DNA of 64,000 nucleotides from Komagataeibacter nataicola (GTDB lineage: Bacteria > Pseudomonadota > Alphaproteobacteria > Acetobacterales > Acetobacteraceae). Positions 10,184 to 45,303 of this stretch are shown here, piece after piece. Location: positions 186,001-250,000 of the forward strand of contig NZ_NIRT01000001.1 in the NCBI RefSeq assembly GCF_003207795.1, in the 5' to 3' direction. The notes beneath the pieces were generated by a model. That model worked only from the letters and a program-made list of their open reading frames with translations, had not been told where the DNA came from and did no database searches. Position 1 is the first letter of the stretch. Every line of letters begins with the position of its first letter. Position numbers and translations under genes: made by a program.

Positions 10184-11458
10184 TCATGAGGCATCGTTCA
10201 GGCTGGTCTCAAGCGTGGTGATCTCGTGCCAGAGCTCATCGGCCGTGCGCTGTGGCGGGCGGCGGGTGTTGGTCAGCACGACGAATTCCAGCGTCATGGG
10301 GCGTGTGGAATAACGCTGGCGGCTGACACGGTAGCGCTTGTAGGGGCGGGTAAAGACCTGCACCGCACCGCGCTCGCAATTGGCCTGCAGCATGTCCCTG
10401 AGCGCAATGAAGCCATCGGTGCTGTAACTCGTGGCGATCCAGCGCGTATCGAGCACCGATAGCAGGTGCCGGTAGGCCGCAAGCGCCTGCCTGCGGTGGT
10501 TGTAGGGGCTGCGCCGCTCGGTGCGCCAGTCCTGGCGTATGGCCGCCTTGTCGCGCCCGGTAATCTTGGGGGCCAGGGGCGGGCTGTCCCACAGGGCGAT
10601 GGTGTTGAGCACGTGATAATTGGCGCCATAGGGGTGCTGGTTGTAGGGCGGGTCGATATAGGCGATGGCCGCCTCCCCCACTTCCCCCGCCAGGGTGTCG
10701 GCCAGGGCATGGGCATCCATGCGCAGCACCCTGTTCTCATGCCCGTTATCAATAAAGGCCGCCGGGCGTAGCGCAAGGTCGGCGGCAATGCGGTACAGCG
10801 CCGTGCCCGTGCGCCCGCCCCAGCCGTGGTGAAACCCCTTGAACAGCCCGCTGGTATTGCTGTTGTAGCTGGCGCTGTACAGCAGCGGAGCCAGCAGGCA
10901 GGCCTTCTGCTCCGCATCAAGCAGGCCATCGTGTTCCCACCGGGCAATCTGCGCGCGAATGGCGTCGATGCGCATGCCATTCTTGCGCATGTAGAACATC
11001 CGGTCGCGCGCGGTGTCATAATGCACGTCATCATCAGGGCACAGGTGGCGGGTGATCCAGCCTTCCAGCGGCGGCAGGGCGTTGAGTTCCGCCATGACCT
11101 GCTCATAACTGCGCCCGCCATGAAAGACCGGCGCGCGTGACTGGACGATATGGCAGCGGTTGATCTGTTCGCTATAGGGCTCCCAGTCATTGCACAGCAC
11201 GCGAAAGCCAAGCCGCTTGGCAAGCCTTGATACGACGCCGGTGCCCGCAAACAGGTCGATGAAGTCCGTGCGGGGCGGCGCCTCGCCCGTGGCCGCTATG
11301 GCCTGCGCGATCAGGCCGAGCAGCTTGCGCTTGTTGCCGATATAGGGAATGAGCTGGCTGAACAGGTAATCCCCGGTCAGCAGCGCGGAATGGCGGCCCG
11401 GGCTCCATTCCATGCCGGACGGGCCATGCGGCCCGTCAGGATCGGGGTGCCGGTTCAT
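10184..11458 (-). CDS. D12-class (Dam-like) DNA adenine N6-methyltransferase
   Basis: A 424-residue amino-methyltransferase of the D12/alpha group: the S-adenosylmethionine motif FAGTG (residues 70-74) comes before the catalytic DPPY (269-272), with the preceding Q-L-I-P-Y-I-G-N-K-R-K-L-L as motif X. It transfers methyl to adenine N6 in DNA; the recognition site cannot be read from sequence. The frame is open 46 codons further up, but that stretch lies inside ccrM, so the ATG 22 bp after the ccrM stop was taken. No restriction endonuclease gene adjoins it, so it is either an orphan methylase or part of a split system. It is third in the rnhB-ccrM operon. Confidence 0.85.
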   Translation of the reverse strand: MNRHPDPDGPHGPSGMEWSPGRHSALLTGDYLFSQLIPYIGNKRKLLGLIAQAIAATGEAPPRTDFIDLFAGTGVVSRLAKRLGFRVLCNDWEPYSEQINRCHIVQSRAPVFHGGRSYEQVMAELNALPPLEGWITRHLCPDDDVHYDTARDRMFYMRKNGMRIDAIRAQIARWEHDGLLDAEQKACLLAPLLYSASYNSNTSGLFKGFHHGWGGRTGTALYRIAADLALRPAAFIDNGHENRVLRMDAHALADTLAGEVGEAAIAYIDPPYNQHPYGANYHVLNTIALWDSPPLAPKITGRDKAAIRQDWRTERRSPYNHRRQALAAYRHLLSVLDTRWIATSYSTDGFIALRDMLQANCERGAVQVFTRPYKRYRVSRQRYSTRPMTLEFVVLTNTRRPPQRTADELWHEITTLETSLNDAS

Positions 11459-11480
11459 GCCACCCTGCCTTCCCCCGCCA

Positions 11481-12584
11481 TCAGGATGCGACGGCTGCCT
11501 GCTCCGCCCGGATCTCGCTGCGCAGCGTATCGAGTTGCACCAGTTCGCCTTCGTGCTCGAAATACCAGAACGTCCAGCCATTGCACGAAGGCGCATTGGT
11601 CAGCGTCGCCCCCATTTTATGAATGGAGCCCCGGTGCCGTCCGCTGACCAGCGTGCCATCGGGCGAGACGGTGGCGCGCACGCGCTTCTGCCGGTCCATG
11701 AGCACGGTGCCCGCAGGCACCATGCCGCGCTCGACCAGCACGCCAAAGGGCACACGCGGGCTTTCGCGCCGGGCGGGGGTGGTCAGCACGCTGTCAAGCG
11801 GCACGGGCTTTTCGCGCCGGGCGCGGCCTATCGCGGCCTCGGCATAATCGGGGTGGCGCTCGATGCCGATAAAGCGGCGACGCAGCCTGCGCGCCATGGC
11901 CGTGGTGGTGCCGGTGCCGGTAAAGGGGTCGAGCACCACGTCATCCACATTGGTCGAAGCCACGAGCACGCGGTGCAGCAGGCTTTCTGGCTTCTGGGTG
12001 GGGTGCAGCTTCAGGCCGTGTTCGTTGCGCAGCCGCTCGCCGCCGGTGCATAGCGGCAGGTACCAGTCCGAGCGCATCTGCACATCGTCATTGAGCGCCT
12101 TCATGGCCTGATAGTTGAATCGGTAGCGGCTGTCTGGGCCGCGCGCGGCCCAGATCAGCGTTTCATGCGCGTTGGTGAAGCGCCGCCCCCGGAAGTTGGG
12201 CATGGGGTTGGACTTGCGCCAGATCACATCGTTCAGGATCCAGAACCCCAGATCCTGCAAAATCGCCCCGATGCGGAAGATGTTGTGATACGAGCCGATG
12301 ACCCAGATCGTGCCATCCTTGCGCAGCACGCGGCGGGCCTCGGTCAGCCAGGCGCGGGTGAATTCGTCATAGGCCCGCAGATCGGCGAATTTGTCCCAGT
12401 CATCATCCACGCCATCGACCACGCTGTCATCGGGGCGGCGCAGTTCCCCCTTGAGCTGGAGGTTGTATGGCGGATCGGCAAACACGCAGTCGATCGAACC
12501 TGCGGGCAGGGTCTGCATCATCTCGACACAGTCGCCACGCAGCACCTGGTCAAGGGGCAATTCCATCATTACCGCACCGCTCAT
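11481..12584 (-). CDS. ccrM: CcrM-type cell-cycle DNA methyltransferase (GANTC)
   Basis: Methylates adenine in GANTC, the solitary methylase that marks replication state in alphaproteobacteria. The 367-residue protein is a beta-group enzyme: DPPY (residues 37-40) precedes the S-adenosylmethionine motif LDPFTGTGTT (about 216-225). It has the conserved W-I-G-S-Y-H-N-I-F-R and HPTQKPESLL segments and the C-terminal domain typical of CcrM, ending with S-C-N-G-W-T-F-W-Y. It starts 7 bp after rnhB; the ribosome binding site is weak, so coupling to rnhB is likely, and a second start at M-M-E-L-P six codons later is possible. A cluster of GANTC sites sits upstream of the operon. Confidence 0.95.
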   Translation of the reverse strand: MSGAVMMELPLDQVLRGDCVEMMQTLPAGSIDCVFADPPYNLQLKGELRRPDDSVVDGVDDDWDKFADLRAYDEFTRAWLTEARRVLRKDGTIWVIGSYHNIFRIGAILQDLGFWILNDVIWRKSNPMPNFRGRRFTNAHETLIWAARGPDSRYRFNYQAMKALNDDVQMRSDWYLPLCTGGERLRNEHGLKLHPTQKPESLLHRVLVASTNVDDVVLDPFTGTGTTTAMARRLRRRFIGIERHPDYAEAAIGRARREKPVPLDSVLTTPARRESPRVPFGVLVERGMVPAGTVLMDRQKRVRATVSPDGTLVSGRHRGSIHKMGATLTNAPSCNGWTFWYFEHEGELVQLDTLRSEIRAEQAAVAS

Positions 12585-12591
12585 GAATTGT

Positions 12592-13245
12592 TCAGCATGA
12601 TGGCTGCTCCGCGCTTGAATGTAAGGAAGAAGGACCGGCAGCCTGCATGATGCGGCGCACCGTGCCGAATGCCGCCCGGTGGTGGGGGCTGACGCCGTGG
12701 GCCATCAGGCCCGCGCGGTGGATGGGAGTGCCGTAACCGGCATTGCGCTCCCAGCCATAAGCGGGCCAGCGCCGGGACAGGCGCTCCATGGCCCGGTCGC
12801 GCACGACCTTTGCCACGACCGAGGCCGCGGCAATGGACAGGCTGACCGCATCACCGCCCACGACGCATTGCGCCGGGCACCCGAAATCGGGCGCGGCGTT
12901 ACCATCGACCAGAACCAGTTCGGGCCATTGCGGCAGGCGGCCAACGGCGCGCTGCATGGCGATCCATGACGCGCGCAGGATGTTGTGCTGTTCGATTTCG
13001 GCCACGGAGGCCGCGCCCACCCCGATCAGGACATCAGGGGTGTCATGCAGCGTATCGTAAAGCTGCTGCCGGACCCTGGGCTTGAGCTTTTTTGAGTCAT
13101 CAAGCGTGTCAGCCAGGTTGCCCGGCACGCCCGAGAGGAACATGACCGCCGCCGCGACGACCGGACCCGCCAGCGGGCCGCGACCGACTTCATCGACACC
13201 GGCGACCCGTCCCCCATGGGCGTGCTCAAGCGTGTAATCCGGCAT
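12592..13245 (-). CDS. rnhB: Ribonuclease HII
   Basis: Cleaves RNA in RNA-DNA hybrids, including single embedded ribonucleotides. The 217-residue protein has the type 2 RNase H active site: [14 protein letters not shown] (catalytic Asp and Glu), D-D-S-K-K-L, VLVDGN and a late Asp in VRDRAM. An AAGGA motif lies about five bases upstream of the ATG. It heads the rnhB-ccrM-methylase operon; the rnhB-ccrM order is common in alphaproteobacteria. The 156-bp upstream region carries the GANTC cluster described separately. Confidence 0.95.
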
Positions 13246-13263
13246 CCAGTCCTTCCCGTCCGG

Positions 13264-13392
13264 GTGCGAATCGGGGTTCAGGCCCGATTCGCACCAGATT
13301 CATGTTCTGGAAGGATGGAAACCATTTTTATGCACGGTTGTGCAAGATGCTGTGGACTCATCGAGTCCCTTAAAATGAAAAAAAAACGACTC
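13264..13392 (-). promoter_or_regulatory. GANTC-dense control region of the rnhB-ccrM operon
   Basis: Six GANTC sites fall within 129 bp: GAATC 13268-13272, GATTC 13286-13290, GATTC 13297-13301, GACTC 13355-13359, GAGTC 13363-13367 and GACTC 13388-13392. Four lie in perfect inverted repeats: a 12-bp stem 13264-13275/13283-13294 with a 7-nt loop, and GGACTC-ATC-GAGTCC at 13354-13368. A third small inverted repeat (TGCAC-GGTT-GTGCA, 13331-13344) sits between them. Roughly half a site would be expected by chance. The region directly precedes rnhB, so CcrM probably influences its own operon. A T-run on the minus strand at about 13379-13387 may also end the csbD transcript. Confidence 0.65.
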
Positions 13393-13401
13393 GAGCCGCG
13401 A

Positions 13402-13704
13402 TCAGCCCTTGCGACGGGGGATGAAAATCAGCCCCATGATGGTGCCGAGCACCGCCGCGATACCGAGGGAAAACAGCGGGCGTTCACGCACGAAGGTCAC
13501 GGCGCGCTCGAGCTTGCCTTCGCCTTCATCGTACAGATCGGCAAATTCCTGCCGCGCCATGCCCGAAAGCTGGTCGATCTTGCCTTCGGCCTGCATGCCC
13601 ACATTGCCCGTAAGGCCGCCAGCGGCGTCCTTCAGGCGGCCAATGCCTTCATCAACCATGCCTTCGCCCTTGGTCTCGATGTTTTTTGCCTTGTCTTCAG
13701 ACAT
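13402..13704 (-). CDS. CsbD-like stress protein with C-terminal membrane anchor
   Basis: A 100-residue protein. The N-terminal part has the CsbD-like pattern (K-G-E-G-M-V-D-E-G-I-G-R-L-K-D, then GKIDQLSG), a charged helical stretch follows, and the C-terminus is an ElaB/DUF883-style anchor: RERPLFSLGIAAVLGTIMGL and then P-R-R-K-G. The ATG at 13704 has GGAG eight bases upstream and is preferred over a GTG one codon earlier. CsbD-like proteins are usually stress-induced; the biochemical role is not known. A related protein with the same layout is at 25079-25339. Confidence 0.78.
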   Translation of the reverse strand: MSEDKAKNIETKGEGMVDEGIGRLKDAAGGLTGNVGMQAEGKIDQLSGMARQEFADLYDEGEGKLERAVTFVRERPLFSLGIAAVLGTIMGLIFIPRRKG

Positions 13705-13756
13705 CACTCACACTCCGTAATATCGCTGTTTTGTAGCGTGGACCCATAACGCCACG

Positions 13757-31665: not shown

Positions 31666-33011
31666 CGCATTTTGCCCTTTCGGCCCCGTCCGCGACGCAT
31701 GAGGCCCTGATACTGATGCGCCACGAGATGCGACTGCACCTGTGTCACCGTATCGATCGTCACGGTCACGATAATGATCAGACTCGTACCACCAAAATAG
31801 AACGGCACGTTGTAATGGCTGATCAGGATCTGCGGCAACAGGCAGACAGCGACAAGATAGAGCGCCCCGATGGTCGTGATGCGCGTCAGGATGCGATCAA
31901 AGAATGCCGCCGTGTTGGCGCCAGGCCGGATCCCCGGCACGAACCCACCCTGCTTGCGCAGGTTCTCCGCCGTCTCCTGCGGGTTAAACGTCACCGCCGC
32001 ATAGAAATACGAGAAAAATACGATCATCGCCGCATAGAACAGCATGTAGAGCGGCTGGCCCTGCCCCAGCGATTGCCCCAGAAAGGACAGCCAGCCAGGC
32101 ATCGAGCTGTTATTGACGAATCCCGCAATGGTAACGGGAATCAGCAATACCGATGAGGCGAAGATCGGCGGAATCGAACCTGCGGTGTTCACCTTCAGCG
32201 GCATATGCGTCGAATCACCGCCAAACATGCGCTGGCCGACCTGCCGCTTGGGGTACTGGATCACCACGCGCCGCTGCGCCAGTTCCATGAACACAATGAA
32301 CGCAATGGTCACAGCGGCCAGCACCAGGAAAACCAGCACGAAAAACGGCGAAAGCGCGCCTGTATAGCCAAGCTGGAACAGGCTTGCGAGCGCATTGGGC
32401 AGGTTTGCCACAATACCCGCGAAGATGATCAGCGAGATGCCGTTACCCACCCCCCGCGACGTTATCTGCTCGCCCAGCCACATCAGGAACATGGTGCCGC
32501 CCACCAGCGTCAGCACGCACGAGACGATGAAGAACATGCCTGGTGAGACAACGGCCGAGCCCGCCTCCGTATGCATGTTCTCCAGCCCGATGGCGATGCC
32601 GTAGGCCTGGAACAGCGCAATGACCACCGTCAGGTAACGGGTATATTCATTCAGCTTGCGCCGCCCGCCCTCGCCTTCCTTCTTCAGGGCTTCAAGGGAA
32701 GGTATGGCCGCCGACATGAGCTGCACGATGATCGAGGCACTGATATAGGGCATGATGTTGAGTGCGAACACGGTCATGCGCCCCAGCGCACCACCCGTGA
32801 ACATATCGAACATACCCAGGATACCGCCCTGATGCCGGGCCAGAAGCTGCCCCATCACCGTCGCATCGACGCCAGGGACGGGGATATAGGTGCCAATCCG
32901 GTAAACGATCAGCGCACCGAGGGTAAACCAGATACGCTTCTTCAGTTCCGTTGCGTTGGCGAAGGAACTGAAATTCAGATTGGCAGCCAACTGTTCGGCC
33001 GCGGAGGCCAT
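31662..33011 (-). CDS. secY: Protein translocase subunit SecY
   Basis: The pore of the general secretion channel; 449 residues with ten predicted helices. Landmarks are L-G-A-L-I-V-Y-R-I-G-T-Y-I-P-V-P-G-V-D, TGGALGRMTVFALNIMPYI in the helix-2 plug region, and the cytoplasmic C-terminal loop P-G-I-R-P-G. It is coupled to adk and lies 158 bp after rplO, a gap that holds a strong hairpin. secE is not in the window. Confidence 0.97.
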   Translation of the reverse strand: MASAAEQLAANLNFSSFANATELKKRIWFTLGALIVYRIGTYIPVPGVDATVMGQLLARHQGGILGMFDMFTGGALGRMTVFALNIMPYISASIIVQLMSAAIPSLEALKKEGEGGRRKLNEYTRYLTVVIALFQAYGIAIGLENMHTEAGSAVVSPGMFFIVSCVLTLVGGTMFLMWLGEQITSRGVGNGISLIIFAGIVANLPNALASLFQLGYTGALSPFFVLVFLVLAAVTIAFIVFMELAQRRVVIQYPKRQVGQRMFGGDSTHMPLKVNTAGSIPPIFASSVLLIPVTIAGFVNNSSMPGWLSFLGQSLGQGQPLYMLFYAAMIVFFSYFYAAVTFNPQETAENLRKQGGFVPGIRPGANTAAFFDRILTRITTIGALYLVAVCLLPQILISHYNVPFYFGGTSLIIIVTVTIDTVTQVQSHLVAHQYQGLMRRGRGRKGKMR

Positions 33012-44888: not shown

Positions 44889-45303
44889 ACGCCTTTCCCG
44901 ATCCTTACAAAATTCGGCCGGCCAACCCCATATCTGGTTGCCGACTGTCGTTCACAACAAAACCCCAACGAATGACAACCATTCGTTCGGGCATCATATT
45001 TACATCCGGCCTGGGCAGCCCGATTCCCGGACTGCGGCACCGCATGTCTGCATGCTGCATTCGACGGCCAACGACGTCTTTCAGACAGGGCTAGCCGAGG
45101 GCGCGTTACCTACGGGCAAACTGACCAAAAGTCAAGCCTTGCGCAGGATTCGCTAGCAGTCTGACGAAACGACTCTGTTCCGCCGGACTCGGAGCACCGC
45201 TCCGTCAGGCTGCTGATACCGCCTGAATCGGATGGTGACAATAGTGCAGCACCGAATCATGCCGGATAACGGTTCCCCGCCATCCGGCATTTCTCTCGTA
45301 TGG
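44889..45303 (-). promoter_or_regulatory. Promoter and long leader before rpsL
   Basis: This 415-bp gene-free stretch holds TTGACT (45130-45135), a 17-bp spacer, TAGGTA (45107-45112) and then ACGCGCC on the minus strand. The roughly 210-nt leader has an AACGAATG/CATTCGTT stem (44967-44974/44980-44987, minus-strand T-rich after it) and a GCATG-TCTG-CATGC hairpin (45042-45055). Just after rpoC lies a 9-bp inverted repeat (45259-45267/45282-45290) without a T-run. Likely a growth-controlled promoter with a ribosomal-protein leader. No coding sequence is evident. Confidence 0.6.

Follow-up and report, generated by a model that had tools for sequence, protein, structure and literature searches.

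The methylase CcrM acts on the adenine of GANTC, replication leaves GANTC hemi-methylated, and both GcrA and RNA polymerase can respond to the methylation state of the site. The ccrM gene of Caulobacter is itself described as "most probably" controlled by methylation (PMC3973325), and transcription starts in that organism whose -10 to -35 interval holds GANTC become active at 40-60 minutes (PMC4287350). Of five GcrA-target promoters, four lost 60-80% of their activity on mutation of GANTC and the fifth did not change (PMC3667746), and CcrM opens a bubble at its DNA site (PMC6787082). The gcrA promoter region of A. tumefaciens holds six GANTC in 250 bp and is less active when methylated (PMC11514494), and hypomethylated promoters occluded by MucR carry up to four GANTC whose methylation is set by binding competition (PMC5172544). 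A comparison of 13 species, one per order, predicts strong GcrA control of ccrM in many of them from an extended GANTC motif upstream of the gene, and reports this motif as lost in Caulobacterales; it is given as YGAKTCK, with no such preference in Brevundimonas (PMC7987155). Genomes hold fewer GANTC than expected, and the sequence between genes holds more (PMC3973325); the accessible part of an earlier survey counts GANTC per promoter and draws no conclusion on control (PMC2877005). A literature search whose coverage excluded most subscription journals found no paper on GANTC in Acetobacteraceae, on ccrM or GANTC in Acetobacter, or on an rnhB-ccrM operon.

Here we analyze a GANTC cluster of Komagataeibacter nataicola within a 64-kb stretch of its genome (the window). 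A preliminary description of this DNA had counted six GANTC sites in 129 bp in front of the gene for the GANTC methylase, and had proposed that they control rnhB, ccrM and a second methylase; all six sites were confirmed, directly before rnhB, the minus strand reading csbD-like gene, GANTC cluster, rnhB, ccrM and D12 methylase (Table 1).

Table 1. Features of the rnhB-ccrM locus, in window coordinates; site positions in gene direction are relative to rnhB.
Feature	Coordinates	Strand or sequence	Remarks
D12-class adenine methylase ORF, lineage-specific	10184..11596	-	PF02086
ccrM, GANTC-type adenine methylase with RAMA domain	11481..12584	-	PF01555, PF18755
rnhB, ribonuclease HII	12592..13245	-	PF01351
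Shine-Dalgarno-like GGAAGGA of rnhB	13250..13256	-	sequence; pairing predicted
Proximal inverted repeat	13263..13295	-	arms 13263-13275 / 13283-13295, 13 bp, 7-nt loop
GANTC site 1	13268..13272	GAATC on +	gene-direction -27; proximal dyad, right arm; context CGANTCG
GANTC site 2	13286..13290	GATTC on +	gene-direction -45; proximal dyad, left arm; context CGANTCG
GANTC site 3	13297..13301		gene-direction -56; 11 bp from site 2
Conserved block GGTTTCCATCCTTCC	13309..13323	-	anti-Shine-Dalgarno or promoter part
Conserved TTGCAC, candidate -35 element	13340..13345	-	17 bp before GTTTCC
Distal dyad GGACTC-ATC-GAGTCC	13354..13368		6 bp each side of ATC
GANTC site 4	13355..13359		one half of distal dyad
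GANTC site 5	13363..13367		other half of distal dyad
GANTC site 6	13388..13392		just past csbD 3' end, beside T run
csbD-like gene, conserved upstream neighbour	13402..13707	-	PF05532; in 31/32 loci

The RnhB of the window is 96% identical to that of two K. xylinus loci. Its neighbour has the domain order of CcrM, an N6_N4 methylase domain (PF01555, 3.7e-61) followed by RAMA (PF18755, 1.2e-17), and scores 623.6 bits over residues 10-357 against NCBIfam NF050803, below the equivalog cut-off of 830; homology to CcrM is clear from these matches, and the strict equivalog label is uncertified. Only 7 bp separate rnhB from ccrM, so that the region before rnhB would drive ccrM as well, and the two genes are presumably co-transcribed. 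The true start of the D12 methylase probably lies inside its ORF, after the ccrM stop. That this second methylase falls under the same control, as had been proposed, was not supported by the comparison of loci: it is found downstream in only 10 of 32 (9/9 Komagataeibacter and one Novacetimonas), the other 22, some with little downstream DNA, giving no match. GcrA (PF07750 above cut-off) is present in all 19 Komagataeibacter genomes. The PF07750 model also scored above its cut-off in one of the control genomes, Sulfolobus acidocaldarius. Before gcrA itself, a GANTC stands at a fixed place, about -83 from the start of the hit, in all 14 of the 19 Komagataeibacter genomes examined there (L183-L196), three of which have extra sites.

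The stem of the proximal repeat, previously given as 12 bp, is 13 bp long, and the distal dyad is as first described. The chance expectation of about half a site per 129 bp is matched by dinucleotide shuffles (about 0.45) but falls to 0.14 at the real density, taken from a 464-kb sample of the same genome with 496 GANTC. The 64-kb window holds 74 GANTC, against 224 in dinucleotide shuffles, a depletion that would be at most an indirect sign of GANTC methylation in this organism. The 464-kb sample joins to the window 20 further stretches drawn from two contigs and covers 12.6% of the genome; the cluster of six in 129 bp is unique in it, against a Poisson expectation of 1.6e-4. The second densest cluster of the sample, five GANTC in 112 bp at 45147-45258, sits between minus-strand ORFs that we take, by eye, to be rpoC and rpsL; a further cluster in the window has four GANTC in 99 bp (32118-32216). 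The rnhB cluster is not a dispersed repeat, as the 156-bp region lacks a second full copy in the genome; its partial copies reach at most 33 bp, one of them being its own inverted repeat, and a conserved 18-mer has one exact occurrence and two matches with 3 mismatches, against one such match in the control. A weak terminator-like stem is present at site 6, but a terminator was rejected as the sole reason for this site, the matching Gluconacetobacter site being kept while most flanking columns vary.

Comparison of the rnhB upstream region across Acetobacteraceae, which the preliminary description had proposed, bore out conservation of the sites as GANTC in relatives. Among 19 Komagataeibacter genomes, the window's own included, sites 6, 5, 4 and 2, which lie near -147, -123, -115 and -46 relative to the start of rnhB, occur in every one, site 1 (near -27) in 18 and site 3 (near -57) in seven; the place matching site 3 carries GANTC in 11/11 Gluconacetobacter. 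In all 11 of these an isolated site near -161 is GAGTC, amid neighbouring columns most of which vary. The distal dyad is intact across the 19 Komagataeibacter genomes, bar an outer base in one, and has a changed N in Novacetimonas. Gluconacetobacter has in its place two sites at a distance of 11 bp that are not symmetric to each other, and 8/11 of its members have lost the GANTC in the right arm of the proximal dyad, so the symmetric arrangement first emphasized is not a general feature.

Similar arrays stand before rnhB in Gluconacetobacter, Novacetimonas, Acetobacter and other genera. At least five GANTC were counted in the 400 bp before rnhB in 31 of 32 Acetobacteraceae loci (L001-L031 and L041, nine further loci outside the family being excluded), L030 having two. 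CcrM was found at E<=1e-100 in 233 of the 249 family genomes searched, and among 80 upstream regions taken from the family, mostly best-scoring and in places several per genus, rnhB precedes ccrM in 65 and does not in 15, in two of these for want of contig. For a set of 46 genera, consisting of the first locus of each genus and the window, the 170 bp preceding rnhB show a 7.05-fold enrichment of GANTC, as against 1.65-fold for the next of 24 like pentamers; the reference is the rest of each locus, which is mostly coding, and GANTC is known to be commoner between genes (PMC3973325). At least three sites occur in this interval in 17/46 genera (5/46 for the next pentamer) and none in 14/46. The GANTC-positive genera would, by likeness to named loci, be acetic acid bacteria. 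Several family members (L118, L149, L144, L140) have no GANTC before either gene; together with the 14 genera siteless before rnhB, they show that any feedback through these sites is not universal.

In many genera the array takes the form GANTCG-n4/5-GATTCaaaagcGANTCG or part of it. Pairs of sites 10-11 bp apart number 21, compared with 5.9 under random placement of the inner sites within the same span (0/5000 simulations as high), and complementary flanks, most commonly CGANTCG and TGATTCA, are found at 62/87 sites versus 131/490 in the own-genome sample; both tests, like the gap analysis below, count related genera as independent. The flank preference is weak outside the family (60/144 versus 41/134 elsewhere, p 0.06). 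Any of the four bases may stand at the N position, with counts across genera of T 33, C 26, A 15 and G 14, as expected for a methylase site; the own genome prefers A and T. By eye, the extended motif YGAKTCK is present on one strand at three of the six window sites (13268, 13286, 13388). The one-turn spacing and the palindromic flanks make a prediction about what reads the sites.

To place the cluster within the class, we used 40 of the 83 genomes outside the family with a CcrM, mostly best-scoring; in all, 85 of 115 alphaproteobacterial genomes have a CcrM match at E<=1e-80. In 39 of the 40 loci rnhB lies upstream of ccrM. GANTC is concentrated in the 170 bp before ccrM (21 per kb, n=40) and not before rnhB (2.1 per kb, 39 loci); the enrichment before ccrM is 12-fold over the rest of the same loci, compared with 2.2-fold for the next pentamer. 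At least three GANTC stand directly before ccrM in 30/40 of these loci, and two of the 40 have eight sites in 170 bp, so that the density of the Komagataeibacter cluster, which had been thought greater than in Caulobacter, is not exceptional in the class. In genera of the acetic acid type, ccrM starts no more than a few bases from the rnhB stop with almost no site directly before it, the cluster standing before rnhB. As the rnhB-ccrM gap widens across 105 loci, fewer sites stand before rnhB (Spearman -0.55) and more before ccrM (+0.51). Starts and stops were assigned by rule for this analysis, and three loci whose gaps fall below -100, probably start-site errors, do not enter the binned table. 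On a rapidly built RnhB tree, with 54/102 weak inner branches, the before-rnhB state requires five changes within the family, of which three or more fall on starred branches; an independent-pair test of gap against cluster place, limited to four pairs on starred branches, was underpowered and its sign test not significant. Because several family members are siteless before both genes, loss and regain is as likely as simple relocation. On this comparison of loci, a putative GANTC-rich ccrM promoter is widespread in the class and stands before rnhB where ccrM abuts rnhB, which suggests that the element is tied to where the ccrM transcription unit begins and not to the ccrM gene itself.

On balance we think it likely that the cluster controls a putative rnhB-ccrM operon in response to methylation. 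CcrM would methylate the sites before the operon, and their full, hemi- or unmethylated state would set the efficiency with which RNA polymerase starts, with or without GcrA, such that CcrM would limit its own synthesis and time it with replication. The net sign would be negative, the region being active while hemi-methylated and damped when fully methylated. In Komagataeibacter and Acetobacter, the covarying leader hairpin formed by the proximal pair would be a probable second, translational layer. The enrichment, the conserved positions, the free N, the phasing, the complementary flanks, the place of the sites before ccrM in most of the class, the presence of GcrA and the precedents above speak for this reading, in which methylation of the sites, its effect on transcription and the negative sign are inferred. 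The reported loss of the GcrA motif before ccrM in Caulobacterales counts against such feedback (PMC7987155), as do the siteless family members, the weak flank effect in the class, the few independent shifts of the cluster, the negative sigma-70 consensus scan and the CcrM score below the equivalog cut-off. Read in this way, the array would give CcrM feedback a concrete, conserved cis-element in acetic acid bacteria.

A consensus scan found no sigma-70 promoter before rnhB, and inspection by eye of 13246-13401 found no TTAA-N7-TTAA CtrA box (as given in PMC4287350). TTGCNN-N17-GTTTCC is a candidate -35/-10 pair, but GTTTCC is no usual -10 and the block also pairs with the Shine-Dalgarno region. 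A permissive form of this pattern fits 13 of 66 sequences at spacing 17, 11 at 18 and 1-9 at other spacings from 8 to 29, several of the fitting sequences being near relatives. Written as TTGCNN-N17-[GC]TTTCC (window 13309-13345), the pair has a constant spacing of 17 bp even among diverged genera and may be either promoter or anti-Shine-Dalgarno. For Gluconobacter oxydans the promoter consensus (ttGnnn, nAtnnn, spacer 16-23; PMC5756330) is too lax to decide whether TTGCAC/GTTTCC is a promoter.

An alternative that we consider unlikely gives the leader RNA the primary role: a GANTC hairpin and an outer stem hiding the Shine-Dalgarno sequence would provide translational control, and the clustering of sites would partly be a by-product of the hairpin. 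The predicted folding of the leader (-95 to +6) agrees with this, with a mean z of -2.69 in 44 acetic-acid-type or near sequences (26/44 below -2) and of -0.05 in 28 other family members (0/28 below -2), a grouping made by sight after the upstream sequences had been viewed. In ten leaders folded for named genera, z was -4.6 for the window, -5.7 for both K. europaeus and K. rhaeticus, -1.9 for Novacetimonas, -2.6, -0.7 and -2.8 for three Gluconacetobacter, and -2.4, -6.6 and -5.4 for three Acetobacter. Covariation also agrees: the hairpin arms are GACTC/GAGTC in Acetobacter where Komagataeibacter has GAATC/GATTC, and the N pair is complementary in 12/12 Acetobacter-type rows and 19/19 Komagataeibacter rows, including one in which the right arm is no longer GANTC. 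A further g31 locus, L076, which is outside this table, is without the pair. In two alignments, one of the 12 Acetobacter-type rows and one of 16 Komagataeibacter, Novacetimonas and Gluconacetobacter rows, the covariation score and the double-change cells exceeded all 500 shuffles, although related rows can also exceed such shuffles without structure; pairs with two-sided change were reached in 11/500 and 7/500 shuffles and further pair types in 67/500 and 20/500. In Komagataeibacter and Acetobacter these alignments show covariation of the proximal dyad in its hairpin form, which together with the strong predicted folding makes plausible the earlier suggestion that the hairpin could act in the transcript.

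The outer stem is the second element of this leader RNA explanation. In the predicted fold, 13309-13315 pairs with the Shine-Dalgarno-like 13250-13256, so that the leader may hide the ribosome-binding site of rnhB. Each alignment has one outer-stem pair with a two-sided change, 2/12 Acetobacter-type rows show a compensated change from C-G to U-A, and duplexes of a sequence's own upstream arm with its Shine-Dalgarno region beat permuted ones (0/2000 as good, versus 735/2000 for other family members), though differing G+C may inflate this permutation test. The evidence for the outer stem is nevertheless weaker than that for the hairpin: the stem is broken at up to 4 of 11 pairs in 4-6 of the 12 Acetobacter-type rows, one varying pair is broken in 5/16 rows of the other alignment, and shuffles of the upstream arm itself give p<=0.05 in 10/44 sequences (versus 1/28 others), with p 0.14 for the window. 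More generally, GANTC pairs or arrays persist at a leader z above -1 in loci of g85, g9 and g47 and in Gluconacetobacter L014, sites 4-6 lie outside the hairpin, and Rfam gave no match at E<=10 in 13150-13480, all of which argues against a primary role of the leader RNA.

A further proposal involving the leader seems to us more doubtful still, and quite improbable. The same bases would be read twice for feedback, in the DNA as a phased palindromic GANTC array through its methylation, and in the RNA as a GAAUC/GAUUC hairpin set in a Shine-Dalgarno-hiding stem. In its boldest form CcrM, which opens a bubble in its DNA site, would also bind this target-like hairpin of its own mRNA and repress translation, the module having arisen independently wherever ccrM abutted rnhB. 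The leader hairpin makes a prediction about translation that is separable from the one on what reads the sites.

The array may instead be an operator for a dimeric regulator that shields GANTC from CcrM, as MucR does elsewhere, a possibility that we hold to be rather unlikely. A dimer bound on one face of the DNA would fit both the palindromic context and the one-turn phasing, and MucR does occlude GANTC in Caulobacter and Sinorhizobium (PMC5172544); yet GANTC persists from genus to genus through changes of the N base and of the spacers, and the regulator is purely hypothetical at this locus. Finally, a chance peak of a site that is over-represented more than 1.5-fold intergenically in CcrM-bearing orders (PMC3973325) is very improbable, being contradicted by the conservation of the sites, with 7- to 12-fold enrichment across genera and families, fixed positions and phasing.

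The cluster is real, conserved and locally striking, a probable control region and variant of the GANTC-rich ccrM promoter, which has in part already been predicted in print (PMC7987155). That prediction concerns the upstream region of ccrM itself and, in the accessible text, comes without the rnhB arrays, the one-turn spacing and the leader structure of this locus; the place before rnhB, the spacing and the leader structure are apparently new features. As at the Caulobacter ccrM promoter (PMC3973325), GANTC sites would stand in the region controlling the very methylase that modifies them. The region here differs in standing before rnhB instead of ccrM, in having five to six sites, one-turn spacing and a leader hairpin, and in the lack of the CtrA box noted above. 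The MucR-occluded promoters differ in that an occluding protein is here only hypothetical. The gcrA promoter of A. tumefaciens shares with the cluster its six GANTC motifs and the same GcrA/CcrM circuit (PMC11514494). It controls gcrA, however, and not ccrM (PMC11514494), and the Komagataeibacter gcrA has one fixed site in 14/14 genomes examined, with extras in three.
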